Positions 6,941 through 20,157 of a stretch of 20,157 bases of DNA are shown here, piece by piece. The notes beneath the pieces were generated by a model that did not search any database, was not told the DNA's origin, and was given only the letters and a program-made list of their open reading frames with translations. The position numbers and the translations under genes were made by a program. Origin of the DNA: a virus. Within the stretch, counting starts at the first letter, position 1; every line of letters starts with the position of its first letter. The stretch lies in the IMG/VR virus record IMGVR_UViG_3300011114_000838, positions 1-20,157 of that record. One strand, written 5' to 3'.

Positions 6941-7798
6941 GTGGACATCGAGCTGCTTTACGATCGATCAACGGTGGTGGCCCACACCGATTTGGACGGC
7001 GTTGTGGCAACCTCGGCCACGGCCGTGCTGCGCAAGGCCGATGGCACCACGCTACAATCGCCGGCGGTGACGCTGCCCACGGTGAGCACCACGGTGGCGG
7101 CGGGCAGTACAATCTTGGCTTTGATCTTGGCCAGCGTGACCGGCGTGCTGGTGGGCGTGCCGCTGGTGGTTGTCAGCGATGGCGTGAGCTACGTTGTGAC
7201 GCCGGTGCGGATTGACGGCACCACGGTTTATCTGGCTGCGGCGTTGCCGGTTGTGCCGGACACCGGCAGCCCCGTAAAGAATCTCAGAATGACGGCCACG
7301 ATCACGGCACCGGGCATTGCCCTGCTTGGATCTGGCTTGCAGCTCGAGTGGCGCTATGCCTCGGCCTCGGCCAACGGCTTTGCGACGGTCGAGGTGTCGA
7401 TTGTGCGTTGGCTGTGGCAGCCACCGATCAGCGGCGGCGAGGTGGCTGAGTTATTGGCCACGGTGTACCAAACGACACGCAGCGATGACTTTTGCCGCGG
7501 TGTGGCCGATCGCGTCAATCTCAAGATCCGCAATGCGATTGAGCAAACTGGGCGTAGGCCATATTTGTATGTGGCACCGGGCGCATTTGCCGAGGTGGCC
7601 CAAGTTGGCGCACGGTGGGTGCTGGCCGATAACGGGATCGGGCTTGTGGGCGATCTGGCTGGGCTGGTGCGCGAGTATCGCTTTGCATTTAATGACGAAA
7701 TGGCCAAGGCTGTGGCTGGGCTCAAGGGCTACGACAGCGACAATGATGGCAAGGTCACAGCCCAGCGCAACGTGCTGGCGATCAAGATGAGGCGCTAA
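6941..7798 (+). CDS. Head-tail connector/adaptor candidate
   Basis: A 285-residue protein, start GTG with AGGG at 6931-6934. Head-completion proteins normally sit between the capsid and tail tube genes. The N-terminal half is Val/Thr/Ala-rich beta-like sequence (about 1-150). The C-terminal half is largely helical (about 160-285), resembling the helical bundle of gp15/gp6-type connector proteins, though I cannot assign a family. Near the C-terminus, residues 265-272 read DSDNDGKV, a calcium-loop-like DxDxDG motif; loop position 12 is Arg (R276), so it is not a full EF-hand. It abuts the next gene (stop 7796-7798, start 7799). It could be a fusion of a head-fibre or beta domain with an adaptor. 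The role is inferred from order. Confidence 0.65.
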   Translation: MDIELLYDRSTVVAHTDLDGVVATSATAVLRKADGTTLQSPAVTLPTVSTTVAAGSTILALILASVTGVLVGVPLVVVSDGVSYVVTPVRIDGTTVYLAAALPVVPDTGSPVKNLRMTATITAPGIALLGSGLQLEWRYASASANGFATVEVSIVRWLWQPPISGGEVAELLATVYQTTRSDDFCRGVADRVNLKIRNAIEQTGRRPYLYVAPGAFAEVAQVGARWVLADNGIGLVGDLAGLVREYRFAFNDEMAKAVAGLKGYDSDNDGKVTAQRNVLAIKMRR

Positions 7799-8236
7799 GT
7801 GCCGATTGGATCGACAACAAGCGGATCGATTCTGGCGGCGTGGAAGGTGCGCATTGATGCCTTGGTGCCGATCACGCGCGCCGGTGTCGATGACAAATAC
7901 CAATCGATCGTGGGCTTGCGCCACACGCACATGGGATCGCGGGCGATTCTGCTGACGTGCCAGCCGGGGCGGCGATTGCAGGGCGGGCGCAGCTGCAGCG
8001 ATTGGGAGATGATCGCGCTGATCGAGGCGTGGTATTTGGACAATCCCGGCGCATACGCTCAGACTTGCGAAGATGCTGAACAAATTGCTGATGATCTATA
8101 TACTTGGGTGGCAAGCGTGGCGGGTGAAGATCTTGGCCTATTGCGGATTGAGCCCGAGCTTGCGAACATTGCAGGCGGTGACGGTGAGCTGCAGGTGACG
8201 CGCACGGTGCGTTTTGTTTATCGTGGCCTTGGATGA
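7799..8236 (+). CDS. Tail terminator/tail completion candidate
   Basis: A 145-residue protein starting at the GTG that directly follows the previous stop, with TGAGG at 7788-7792 as RBS. It sits right before the tail tube gene, where siphophages encode the tail terminator or head-tail joining protein. The sequence shows a helix at the N-terminus (GSILAAWKVRIDALV), a central strand region (GSRAILLTCQPG), an acidic helix (CEDAEQIADDLYTWVASVAG) and a final beta strand (LQVTRTVRFVYRGL). This alpha/beta layout and size fit tail terminator folds, where the last strands line the ring. No specific family is recognised, so the function is by position and general shape. Confidence 0.62.
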   Translation: MPIGSTTSGSILAAWKVRIDALVPITRAGVDDKYQSIVGLRHTHMGSRAILLTCQPGRRLQGGRSCSDWEMIALIEAWYLDNPGAYAQTCEDAEQIADDLYTWVASVAGEDLGLLRIEPELANIAGGDGELQVTRTVRFVYRGLG

Positions 8237-9675: not shown

Positions 9676-10155
9676 ATGATGATAACGACAAGCAAGGGCC
9701 GCACTGTGCGGCTGGTGTACACCGGCGATCCGGCTGTGCAGCTGACAAGTGCGGCGCTCAAGCAGCGCATGGATGCGCGTGAGCGCCGTGAGCTCAAGGC
9801 TGCGCAGGCCGAGCTGCCCAAGGACGCAACAGAAGCTGACAAGGACGCGGCGGTGACGGCCACGCTGGAGCGGTTGGTGGATGCGCCGCTGCCCAAGGCG
9901 TGGGTGACGGTCGATGAGTGCGACAAAAGCCAAGGTGCGCTGGTGGCCAAGGTGCGGGCGCTCAATTGGCTGGAAGATCAAGAAGCTCAGGGGCTGCCGG
10001 CAGACAAGCAGATCTTGCGGGTGATTGAGCTCGGGCTTGTGGAACTGGCGGTGGACGGCGATGTGGACGGGGCCAAGGAATTTTTGGCCGATCCTCGGGC
10101 CGATTTGGTGATCCCGCTTTATCGGGCGATCTGCGATCTAACCTGGGGAAACTGA
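9676..10155 (+). CDS. Tail assembly chaperone (G-like)
   Basis: A 159-residue acidic, helical protein between tube and tape measure. In lambda, gpG and its frameshifted form gpGT coat the tape measure and recruit tube subunits; they are not in the finished virion. This gene has the matching length (gpG 140 aa), location and a slippery heptamer three bases from its stop. Residues 24-72 are Lys/Glu/Ala-rich helices with a TEADKDAAVTATLERLV stretch; residues 98-135 form a second helical zone with an acidic DGDVDGAKE segment. A fused product join(9676..10152,10152..10493) would be 272 aa, close to lambda gpGT at 279. ATG 9676 is preferred over ATG 9679 by distance from AAGGG. Assignment depends on context and recoding signal rather than primary similarity. 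Confidence 0.8.
   Translation: MMITTSKGRTVRLVYTGDPAVQLTSAALKQRMDARERRELKAAQAELPKDATEADKDAAVTATLERLVDAPLPKAWVTVDECDKSQGALVAKVRALNWLEDQEAQGLPADKQILRVIELGLVELAVDGDVDGAKEFLADPRADLVIPLYRAICDLTWGN
10146..10152 (+). promoter_or_regulatory. -1 ribosomal frameshift site G GGA AAC
   Basis: The heptamer GGGAAAC is in the X XXY YYZ register of the 0 frame (codons TGG GGA AAC, then TGA). Lambda G/GT uses GGGAAAG. A -1 slip here resumes at CTG 10152 and stays open to TGA 10491-10493, bypassing the stop at 10153-10155. Confidence 0.8.
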
Positions 10156-10194
10156 TCCGGGTGGAGGTGGACGGCGAGGCGGCCACCTGGATCA
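10153..10194 (+). other. Hairpin immediately 3' of the slippery site
   Basis: Bases 10153-10164 (TGATCCGGGTGG) pair with 10183-10194 (CCACCTGGATCA) over 12 bp with a single G-U, enclosing an 18-base G-rich loop. Its base abuts the slippery heptamer. When the ribosome sits on the heptamer, the lower part would be melted, leaving the GC-rich upper stem at a usual stimulatory distance. It could also mask the weak independent starts of the second ORF. Confidence 0.6.
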
Positions 10195-10493
10195 CAATCT
10201 TGCCGCACATGCTGACGATCTGGCTCAAGGAAGGGCTTTATCGGCGTGCGGTTTGGCGTTGTCGCTGTGAGGCTGGGCCTTGTGCTGAGGTGCCCGATGG
10301 CGCAGAGCTGCCGGGCGGGGCGTGGTCGCTGTGCCCTTACGGCCTGATGCGCGGGCCACAATTCCAATCGCTGCTGATTCTTGACAGATGCGCTACCATT
10401 GGGCCACTGGCCGGATGGCCCGAGGCTTATCCTGCTTGGCTAGGCTGGGGCTTGGTTCAATTACGCCAGCGAAAACCGCGGAGTGAAGCATGA
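10161..10493 (+). CDS. Tail assembly chaperone C-terminal ORF (T-like, made by -1 frameshift)
   Basis: This ORF is in the -1 frame relative to the upstream chaperone. The frame is open from the slip site (CTG 10152), so the expected product is a 272-residue G-T fusion carrying 113 residues from this frame. Independent initiation at GTG 10161 (110 aa) is possible but has no properly spaced SD, and that start lies in the hairpin. In lambda the T part binds tube subunits. Counting from 10161, Cys occur at 34, 36, 41, 58 and 77 (CRCEAGPC, later LCPYGL), a cluster that could bind metal. Trp and Pro are frequent near the end (GWPEAYPAWLGWGL). Its stop overlaps the tape measure start (ATGA, 10490-10493). 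Confidence 0.75.
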   Translation: MEVDGEAATWITILPHMLTIWLKEGLYRRAVWRCRCEAGPCAEVPDGAELPGGAWSLCPYGLMRGPQFQSLLILDRCATIGPLAGWPEAYPAWLGWGLVQLRQRKPRSEA

Positions 10494-18050: not shown

Positions 18051-18644
18051 ATGCGAGCGCCACCGACAAGATCTTGGAAAGCGATCCCGCCAATTGCGCC
18101 CAGCGATAGCATTGTGGGCGACGATCCAACGCCACCAGCGGCGTTGTCGCTGGTGCTTGCGGCTGACAATTGGCCGGTGGCTGTGGGCTGTGGGCTTTAC
18201 GCCAGCCCGGCGTGGCCGATGGAGGCCAACACCGCGGCGATAACTCAGCGGCGCGTGGCTGCTGTGATCCCACCGGCTTGCAGGTACAGCCAAGCGTGGA
18301 TCACCAGAAGTGGCAATGATGACGGCCAGCAACCAACGCAACAGGTGGGCCACACGCATGCGAGCGCGACGGGTGGCGGCTACACTGGCAATCCGGTGAG
18401 CGCGGCTGACTCGCCGGTGGCGGGGGCCGAGGTATACTTGCAAACGGATCCTGTGCTGGCGATGACCGGCGTGGCGATCGCACCAACGGGCACGACGATC
18501 AATGATGCGCCAACTGGGCCGATCGATCGGGCGCTGGCGGTGCCAGAAACTTTGCACGCAAGTGTTGAAGTCTATGAGTTCAATCAGGTGGCGGGTGCCA
18601 GCTTGAAGTTTTGGAATCGCACAAGCGATCTAGAAGGGTTGTAG
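18051..18644 (+). CDS. Small tail/fibre-associated protein, unknown
   Basis: A 197-residue protein whose ATG directly follows the previous TAA, with AGGAG at 18040-18044. It is Pro/Ala/Thr-rich with few charged residues and no long helix, so probably an extended beta structure. A single GHTHASATGGG segment at residues 100-110 holds an HxH pattern like those that coordinate iron in some phage spikes and fibres; one copy is weak evidence. The C-terminus (ASVEVYEFNQVAGASLKFWN) looks like two beta strands. It precedes the repeat-rich protein by 32 bases (18645-18676), which contain only a GGAGG RBS at 18666-18670. Confidence 0.6.
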   Translation: MRAPPTRSWKAIPPIAPSDSIVGDDPTPPAALSLVLAADNWPVAVGCGLYASPAWPMEANTAAITQRRVAAVIPPACRYSQAWITRSGNDDGQQPTQQVGHTHASATGGGYTGNPVSAADSPVAGAEVYLQTDPVLAMTGVAIAPTGTTINDAPTGPIDRALAVPETLHASVEVYEFNQVAGASLKFWNRTSDLEGL

Positions 18645-18676
18645 CGTTTGGCGTAGACTTAGCGCGGAGGTGTTGT

Positions 18677-20157
18677 ATGAGCGGTTTTTATCGTGGGCTG
18701 ATCTTGGTGAGCAAAGATGTGTTGGCTAAATTGGGCCAGCGCACACTGACCGGCGCGGGCCAAGAGGAGATCTGGCCGGGCACCGATGTGACGCGGCCAA
18801 CACCGGCGGGCGAGCAGTTGCGGCTGATCAGCACCAGCGTGGACGATGACGCGGTGCGCGATGAGACGGGTACGATCACGGTGGCCGGCACCATGGACAT
18901 CGCGCTGGCCAAGATCGTGGAGATCACGCTGGCGGGCGATCTGCAGGTGATCACCACCGACACGTACACCGGCACGATTGCCGGTGCGCCCGATTTGGGC
19001 GATGTGGCCAAGATCACATTGAACGGCACGGCTTATGGCTACCATGTGAACGCCGGCGATGCTGCGGCTGACGTTGCAGCTGGCGTCAAGAACGCAGCAA
19101 ACTTGGGCAGCTATGACGCGCACAAATTTGTACTGGGTGGCACGGCCGATGTGGGCGATTCGCTGCGGCTGACGTTGGGCGCGGTCAATTACGATCGCGT
19201 GGTCGATGGCACGATCGACACCTGGGACGGCACGGTGGCGGGTGGCGCACCAGCTGCCGGCGATGTGGTTACGCTGACGCTGAACGGAGTTGCGTATGCT
19301 TATCGCTTTGCGACTGGCGACACGGCCACGCTGATGGCGGCTGGCGTCAAGAACGCGGCCAACTTGGGCAGCATTGATTGCTGGAAAATTGTGCTGGGCG
19401 GCACGGTGCAGGCTGGCGATGAGGTGCGGATCGTACTGGGGCCAAACACTTACACGCAGGTGACGGGCGTGGGCACGGCCACTGACGCGGCAGCGGGCAT
19501 TGCTGTGCAGGCTGCGGCTGATGCCAATTACACGGTGACGGCTGCGGTTGGCAGCATATTTATCACGGCCAAAGTGCGCGGCGCTGCTGGCGCTTTTACG
19601 TGCTCGGGCAGCTGGATCGTGGACGGCAACGGCGGCAACACCGTGACCACCACGCACGCTGTGACCGGCACCACGCTGCAAACGGCGTGGACGATCAGCA
19701 ACGCCGGCGCGGCTGTGACGGCCACGCACGTGGTGCACGGCACCACGGCTGACACAGTTACGGGCAGTTATAGCGGCGGCACTGGCACTTTTAGCATGCC
19801 AACGCACACGATCACCGGCACCACCGAAACCAAGACGGTGATCGCTGCGGCGATTGCAACACTTGCAGCGGCGGATCCTTTGTACGCGGTGACATCGGAT
19901 GGCGTGAACATTCGCTGCGTCAAGAAAGCCCGAGGCGTTGCAGCCACGTGCACCTGCAGCTGGACGGTGGATGGCGGTGTGGCGGCCACGGTGACGAGCA
20001 CCCAGCCGGTGGTTGGCGTTGTCGCTCAAACGGCGTGGTCGCTGAGCAATGCGGGCGCTGATTTGACCATTGCGCACGCTGCAGCGGGTGCGACGGCTGA
20101 CACCGCGAGCTCAAGCTACGTGCAAGACGTGGGCACCGGCACTTTTGCGGCGCTAAC
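18677..20157 (+). CDS. Repeat-rich virion/fibre-like protein (3' truncated by window end)
   Basis: An open frame from ATG 18677 (GGAGG at 18666-18670, 6 bases upstream) to the window edge with no stop, at least 493 residues. The N-terminal 90 residues look like a virion-binding domain (MSGFYRGLILVSKDVLAKLG, with a DETGTITVAGT strand). After that come tandem beta modules with the pattern TLNG.AY......GD.......GV...., a form common in phage fibre and decoration proteins. Two 65-residue units at 108-172 and 195-259 align without gaps (38 of 65 identical), and a different unit of about 116 residues is duplicated from about 275 onward (SW.VDG, QTAW, SNAGA, GTGTF). Thr, Val, Ala and Gly dominate. 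Host binding or capsid/tail decoration is likely. The antisense ORFs over it are composition shadows. Confidence 0.8.
   Translation, partial: MSGFYRGLILVSKDVLAKLGQRTLTGAGQEEIWPGTDVTRPTPAGEQLRLISTSVDDDAVRDETGTITVAGTMDIALAKIVEITLAGDLQVITTDTYTGTIAGAPDLGDVAKITLNGTAYGYHVNAGDAAADVAAGVKNAANLGSYDAHKFVLGGTADVGDSLRLTLGAVNYDRVVDGTIDTWDGTVAGGAPAAGDVVTLTLNGVAYAYRFATGDTATLMAAGVKNAANLGSIDCWKIVLGGTVQAGDEVRIVLGPNTYTQVTGVGTATDAAAGIAVQAAADANYTVTAAVGSIFITAKVRGAAGAFTCSGSWIVDGNGGNTVTTTHAVTGTTLQTAWTISNAGAAVTATHVVHGTTADTVTGSYSGGTGTFSMPTHTITGTTETKTVIAAAIATLAAADPLYAVTSDGVNIRCVKKARGVAATCTCSWTVDGGVAATVTSTQPVVGVVAQTAWSLSNAGADLTIAHAAAGATADTASSSYVQDVGTGTFAAL
18998..19453 (+). repeat. Tandem 65-residue protein modules with 87-codon period
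   Basis: Copy 1 is 18998-19192 and copy 2 is 19259-19453, exactly 261 bases apart. The most conserved DNA core (19079-19111 vs 19340-19372) encodes AGVKNAANLGS in both, with only synonymous third-position changes. Linker codons between copies encode 22 residues. Confidence 0.85.
19499..20157 (+). repeat. Tandem module of about 116 residues, second copy running off the window
   Basis: Shared blocks are Y.VT (codon 19529 vs 19883), K.RG.A...TC (before 19604 vs 19958), SW.VDG (Trp codons 19613 vs 19961), QTAW, SNAGA and GTGTF (ending 19792 vs 20146). Offset is 348-354 bases, so small indels exist between copies. A third copy may follow beyond the window. Confidence 0.75.

Follow-up and report, generated by a model that had tools for sequence, protein, structure and literature searches.

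The locus considered here raises the question of why two overlapping open reading frames (ORFs) lie between the gene for a major tail protein and a tape-measure-like gene, the second in the -1 frame relative to the first, with a slippery heptamer in the matching phase close to the first ORF's end. In long-tailed phages, frameshifting between genes G and T is widespread (PMC5009743), and it is very probable, judging from the sequence and its relatives, that the two ORFs (here called G and T) act as one expression unit, in which a minority of ribosomes would slip by -1 and yield a G-T fusion. A first-pass annotation had already proposed a programmed -1 frameshift at this site. That reading is now supported by the conservation of the heptamer and of the -1 frame, and by a distant relative in which the heptamer has been exchanged for another one.

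The window, that is, the whole stretch of DNA that was analysed, comprises the 20,157 bases of a viral contig record. The first ORF ends with ACC TGG GGA AAC TGA, and GGGAAAC indeed stands in exact register before the stop codon, as had been claimed. The claim that the -1 frame is open from the slip site to an ATGA overlap with the next gene also holds: this frame is open from position 10029 up to a stop codon at 10491-10493. The predicted G-T fusion has 272 amino acids (aa). Heptamers of any kind with the in-register pattern X_XXY_YYZ are scarce: the window's genes contain 8 in 4,621 codons. Furthermore, GGA makes up just 4.8% of the glycine codons in these genes, yet it is invariant at the slip site. 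The features of the locus are collected in the table.

Features of the G-T locus (positions in the window; all sizes refer to predicted products)
Feature	Position	Strand	Remarks
Major tail tube gene, 459 aa	8257..9636	+	Pfam PF18906 Phage_tube_2, E 5e-4, below cut-off
G-like gene, 0-frame ORF, 159 aa, product of normal decoding	9676..10155	+	Tail assembly chaperone by position
Slippery heptamer G_GGA_AAC, in X_XXY_YYZ register	10146..10152	+	Identical in window, L002, L003 and L006/L007
0-frame stop codon TGA, abutting the heptamer	10153..10155	+	TGA/TGA/TAA in three sequences; missing from L006/L007
T-like gene, -1 frame, 115 aa from slip site, C-terminal part of the fusion	10146..10493	+	
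RNA hairpin, 12-bp stem, 5' arm 10153-10164, 3' arm 10183-10194	10153..10194	+	RNA folding and covariation
Tape-measure-like gene, 835 aa	10490..12997	+	ATG at 10490, ATGA overlap with T

Upstream of G are a TerL gene (phrog_2, E 1.6e-33), a gene in the portal position and a capsid gene (phrog_4523, E 3e-5). The homologue of the tail tube protein in the related contig L002 clears the curated cut-off of Phage_tube_2 (27.7 versus 27 bits). The tail tube protein of the window is large in comparison to the 266 positions of this weakly matching family, which suggests an inserted or added domain. The tape-measure-like gene has no convincing family match and owes its name to position and length alone. 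Its place and its overlap with T are kept in the relatives, with GTGA instead of ATGA in L002. Further along, on the + strand, a frame rich in threonine, alanine and glycine (18611-20155; 515 aa) stays open until the contig stops, overlapping an antisense ORF of 472 aa; it has the look of a repetitive fibre or tail protein that is truncated by the contig end.

Neither G nor T has a convincing match in Pfam, PHROGs or NCBIfam. The AlphaFold model of G is confident (pLDDT 87). It has no structural match in the PDB; in BFVD, two annotated tail assembly chaperones, both from Microbacterium phages, are among its top five viral matches, with weak E values of 0.06-0.07. The model of T alone is poor (pLDDT 48). 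The T protein carries invariant cysteines at positions 39, 41, 46 and 63, in the arrangements C-R-C-x4-C and C-P-[YF]-G. In the distant homologue from contig L031, which is described below, a C-x-x-C-G-G-T-G stretch together with another cysteine resembles a small zinc-binding motif.

Relatives were located by means of the terminase, which yielded nine related contigs. Four of these reach through G-T, with complete synteny; two of the four, L006 and L007, share 12,299 nt without a difference and were counted once, so that three relatives are independent. The close comparison set therefore consists of four independent sequences (the window, L002, L003 and L006/L007), or five when L031 is included. 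In the three independent contigs the G homologues occupy the same place, between the tail tube and tape-measure-like genes. They are 43-52% identical to G of the window, while T is better conserved (55-68%). The lineage is uncultivated and represented by metagenome contigs only. Single-protein searches gave nothing in viral contigs (with G and the tail tube protein), in phage records (with G, the tail tube protein and the capsid protein) or in plasmids (with the tail tube protein). When genome contigs were scanned with alignments of T and of the terminase, neither a prophage nor a host came up, and bacterial and archaeal genomes, taken one per species, showed only generic terminase similarity. 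Matches to the DNA pattern GAYCNNACNTGGGGAAACT in L019, L020, L022, L025 and L026 are without a G-T pair and were taken as chance.

This comparison with relatives had been set beforehand as a refuting test for the frameshift, and it found heptamer and -1 frame intact in all three independent relatives, and thus in four of the four independent sequences with the window included. The stretch TGGGGAAACT, which contains the heptamer, is invariant in all four, and T homology starts exactly at the heptamer in every close relative. Other in-register heptamers in further codon-aligned genes are common to two of the four sequences at most. In codon alignments, the nucleotide differences within T gather at the third positions of the -1 frame, which is therefore a real coding frame. 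Coding selection acts on both frames.

The more distant contig L031 was retrieved by scanning with an alignment of the tail tube protein, and its own tube protein is 31% identical to that of the window. Here (7418-7894), the 0-frame ORF that follows the tube gene ends four codons past CCCTTTG (7499-7505), read as C_CCT_TTG, which is the sole in-register heptamer in this G ORF. The -1 frame encodes a T homologue of 131 aa (tblastn to T, E 1.5e-4). The letters of the heptamer thus differ, and the site and the -1 frame are the same as in the close relatives. This swap, with frame and place kept, is direct evidence that slipping itself, rather than the particular letters, is under selection, and it is the strongest single argument for such selection. 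The stem just after the heptamer is weaker in L031.

A feature that was absent from the first-pass annotation is the hairpin that follows the heptamer. Its stem follows the heptamer without a gap, and the stop codon lies within the pairs. The outer pairs, from 0 onwards, are present in three of the four close sequences; L003 is without most of them and chiefly keeps the pairs from about +5. The core common to all four consists of about 10158-10165 paired with 10182-10189. Several pairs have undergone compensatory double changes (for example, G-C to T-A, A-T to G-C, T-A to C-G and G-C to C-G). Nine codon-aligned genes allow 283,827 stems of 12 bp, among which the hairpin ranks first on pairing and double changes jointly. 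RNAalifold independently arrives at this stem, in which six pairs are doubly changed. Pair counts were taken from the codon alignment, since MAFFT nucleotide alignments misplace the gap of L003. Over 42 nt, three sequences have folding energies in the lowest 0.1-0.4% of windows, and L003 has one in the lowest 13%. Compared with shuffled sequences the energies are unremarkable (z -0.8 for the window, -0.45 to -1.5 overall). The case for the hairpin is built on covariation and position in four sequences.

The placement of this hairpin, flush with the slip site, is unusual, as stimulatory structures usually begin 5-8 nt downstream (PMC4066793). The mRNA channel of bacterial ribosomes takes up 11 nt beyond the first base of the P site (PMC7282821). 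When the heptamer occupies the P and A sites, roughly the next five bases would lie inside the channel, their outer pairs already opened, and the shared pairs, from about 10158 onwards, would be found at the channel entrance. The mark of a hairpin-stimulated bacterial -1 signal, a covarying structure spaced from the heptamer so as to stand at the channel entrance, is present at this locus, and the hairpin may well stimulate slipping. It could also be imagined that the frameshift is real and that the hairpin serves another purpose, either in mRNA stability or in hiding GTG start codons. Its atypical spacing of 0 and the fact that it spans GTG 10161 as well as the stop codon would fit such a role. 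However, in all close relatives the hairpin lies directly against the heptamer, with the part shared by the four beginning where the mRNA would enter the ribosome, and L003 retains the hairpin core in spite of having no start codon there to hide. A hairpin that is foreign to the slipping appears unlikely, although it keeps a certain weight.

Start codons also bear on whether T could be a separate protein, with reinitiation or coupled initiation taking place right after the stop codon of G, at GTG 10161 (or 10167). GTG codons in the T frame are indeed found at +15 and +21 from the start of the heptamer in the window and in L002, and at +18 in L006. In L006/L007, moreover, an ATG (L006:17164-17166) directly precedes GGG AAA, and the start codons alone would allow a separate T there. 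In L003, however, the T frame is devoid of ATG, GTG and TTG from -84 to +219 nt of the slip, and in L031 from -81 to +57 nt, yet the T domain is conserved in both. As far as ordinary start codons go, the conserved T of these two contigs can only be reached from G. Furthermore, the residues G-K-L and the codons GGG AAA, which are ahead of any start, do not vary among the close relatives, and separate initiation leaves the invariant heptamer unexplained. Independent synthesis of T is therefore very improbable.

Two further explanations carry practically no weight. Homopolymer-like runs often give single-base indel artefacts, but an error of sequencing or assembly that split one gene is scarcely credible when separate assemblies from different metagenomes, with 43-68% protein identity, agree in the frame relation and L031 shows it again at another sequence. 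Likewise, the four G and three A residues of the site are mildly repetitive, but a change of frame by RNA polymerase instead of the ribosome is just as remote, since runs of three to four identical bases are short for transcriptional slippage, those in CCCTTTG of L031 count only three, and the conserved X_XXY_YYZ register is relevant to ribosomes only.

With ribosomal slipping as the preferred reading, the following course of events can be proposed. Most ribosomes would stop at the TGA and release the 159-aa chaperone. A minority would be stalled by the hairpin while GGA occupies the P site and AAC the A site. A tandem slip in both sites would then re-pair GGA-AAC on GGG-AAA, and reading would continue in the -1 frame to position 10493, with the G-T fusion as the outcome. 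In this way, G and G-T would be made in a fixed, unequal ratio. Both are probably chaperones, by analogy with lambda gpG and gpGT: the G part would coat the tape measure protein and the T part would recruit the tail tube subunit. The junction peptide named in the first-pass annotation had left open either Asn or Lys; a tandem slip would give T-W-G-N-L-I-R, and W-G-K-L-I-R is predicted only if the slip precedes decoding in the A site.

The rate of slipping may be low. In E. coli, re-pairing from AAC to AAA is poorly tolerated, and bacterial ribosomes appear to accept it less readily than eukaryotic ones (PMC4066793). A low rate is therefore to be expected, unless the hairpin or the tRNAs of the host compensate; we expect that slipping is infrequent and aided by the hairpin. 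Lambda, too, works with a low rate, the ratio of its two products being about 30:1 (PMC5009743). For tail chaperone slip sites in another cluster, rates of 6-7% have been measured (PMC3711429). As to the stop codon, it had been suggested that its position directly against the slip site adds to slipping. Adjacency is not required, as L006/L007 have TTG in its place and the TGA four codons further on, and the stop codon of L031 is also four codons after the heptamer; a modulating effect may still exist. It is possible, though on the doubtful side, that we are dealing with a composite signal untypical of bacteria, in which a poorly tolerated A_AAC heptamer is combined with a hairpin that pairs the stop codon, slows the A-site codon and delays termination, and thereby tunes the ratio of G to G-T.

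Frameshifting by -1 between G and T is already known as a kind, and so is the G_GGA_AAC site, from the virus HCTV-1. What is added here is a lineage without recognizable tail chaperone sequences, the exchange of one heptamer for another with the frame unchanged, and a covarying hairpin that directly adjoins the slip site. G-T frameshifting is thereby extended to a group of phages whose tail chaperones are recognized by no family library. Since these libraries miss both G and T, the two genes are best named from the frameshift itself. The view that no annotation pipeline would join such ORFs is mostly fair for default annotators; PRFect, however, does exactly this job (PMC10885494). The hairpin, for its part, offers a compact signal for learning what effect a slip-flush stem overlapping the stop codon has on bacterial ribosomes at A_AAC.

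In certain aspects, the locus is reminiscent of G/T of phage lambda, with its G_GGA_AAG site. The gene order is the same: tail tube, G, T in the -1 frame, tape measure. The predicted sizes (159 and 272 aa) are, as had been noted, nearly identical to those of lambda (140 and 279 aa), which were measured in the same way. In both, the slip site is at the 3' end of G, and T is reached, or here would be reached, through the slip (PMC5009743). The two differ in the Z base of the heptamer (C here, G in lambda), in the distance from slip site to stop codon (0 codons here, 5 in lambda) and in the downstream fold over 45 nt, which is strong and covarying here (-23.1 kcal/mol) and weak in lambda (-7.1 kcal/mol). 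Homology to lambda gpG and gpT was not detected with hhalign (probability 0.1% for both). The term "lambda-like" is thus appropriate for the organization and, by inference, the mechanism, and does not extend to the sequences. A counterpart of the slip site, according to its published description, is found in the haloarchaeal virus HCTV-1, for which G_GGA_AAC is listed as the g-t site (PMC5009743): the heptamer is identical and the gene pair is the same, but the virus is archaeal. The combination of a heptamer with a downstream RNA structure is shared with E. coli dnaX, IS911 and Lactobacillus phage A2 (PMC5009743, PMC4066793). Their structures generally start 5-8 nt downstream, whereas the stem described here starts at 0, with its universal core at about +5.
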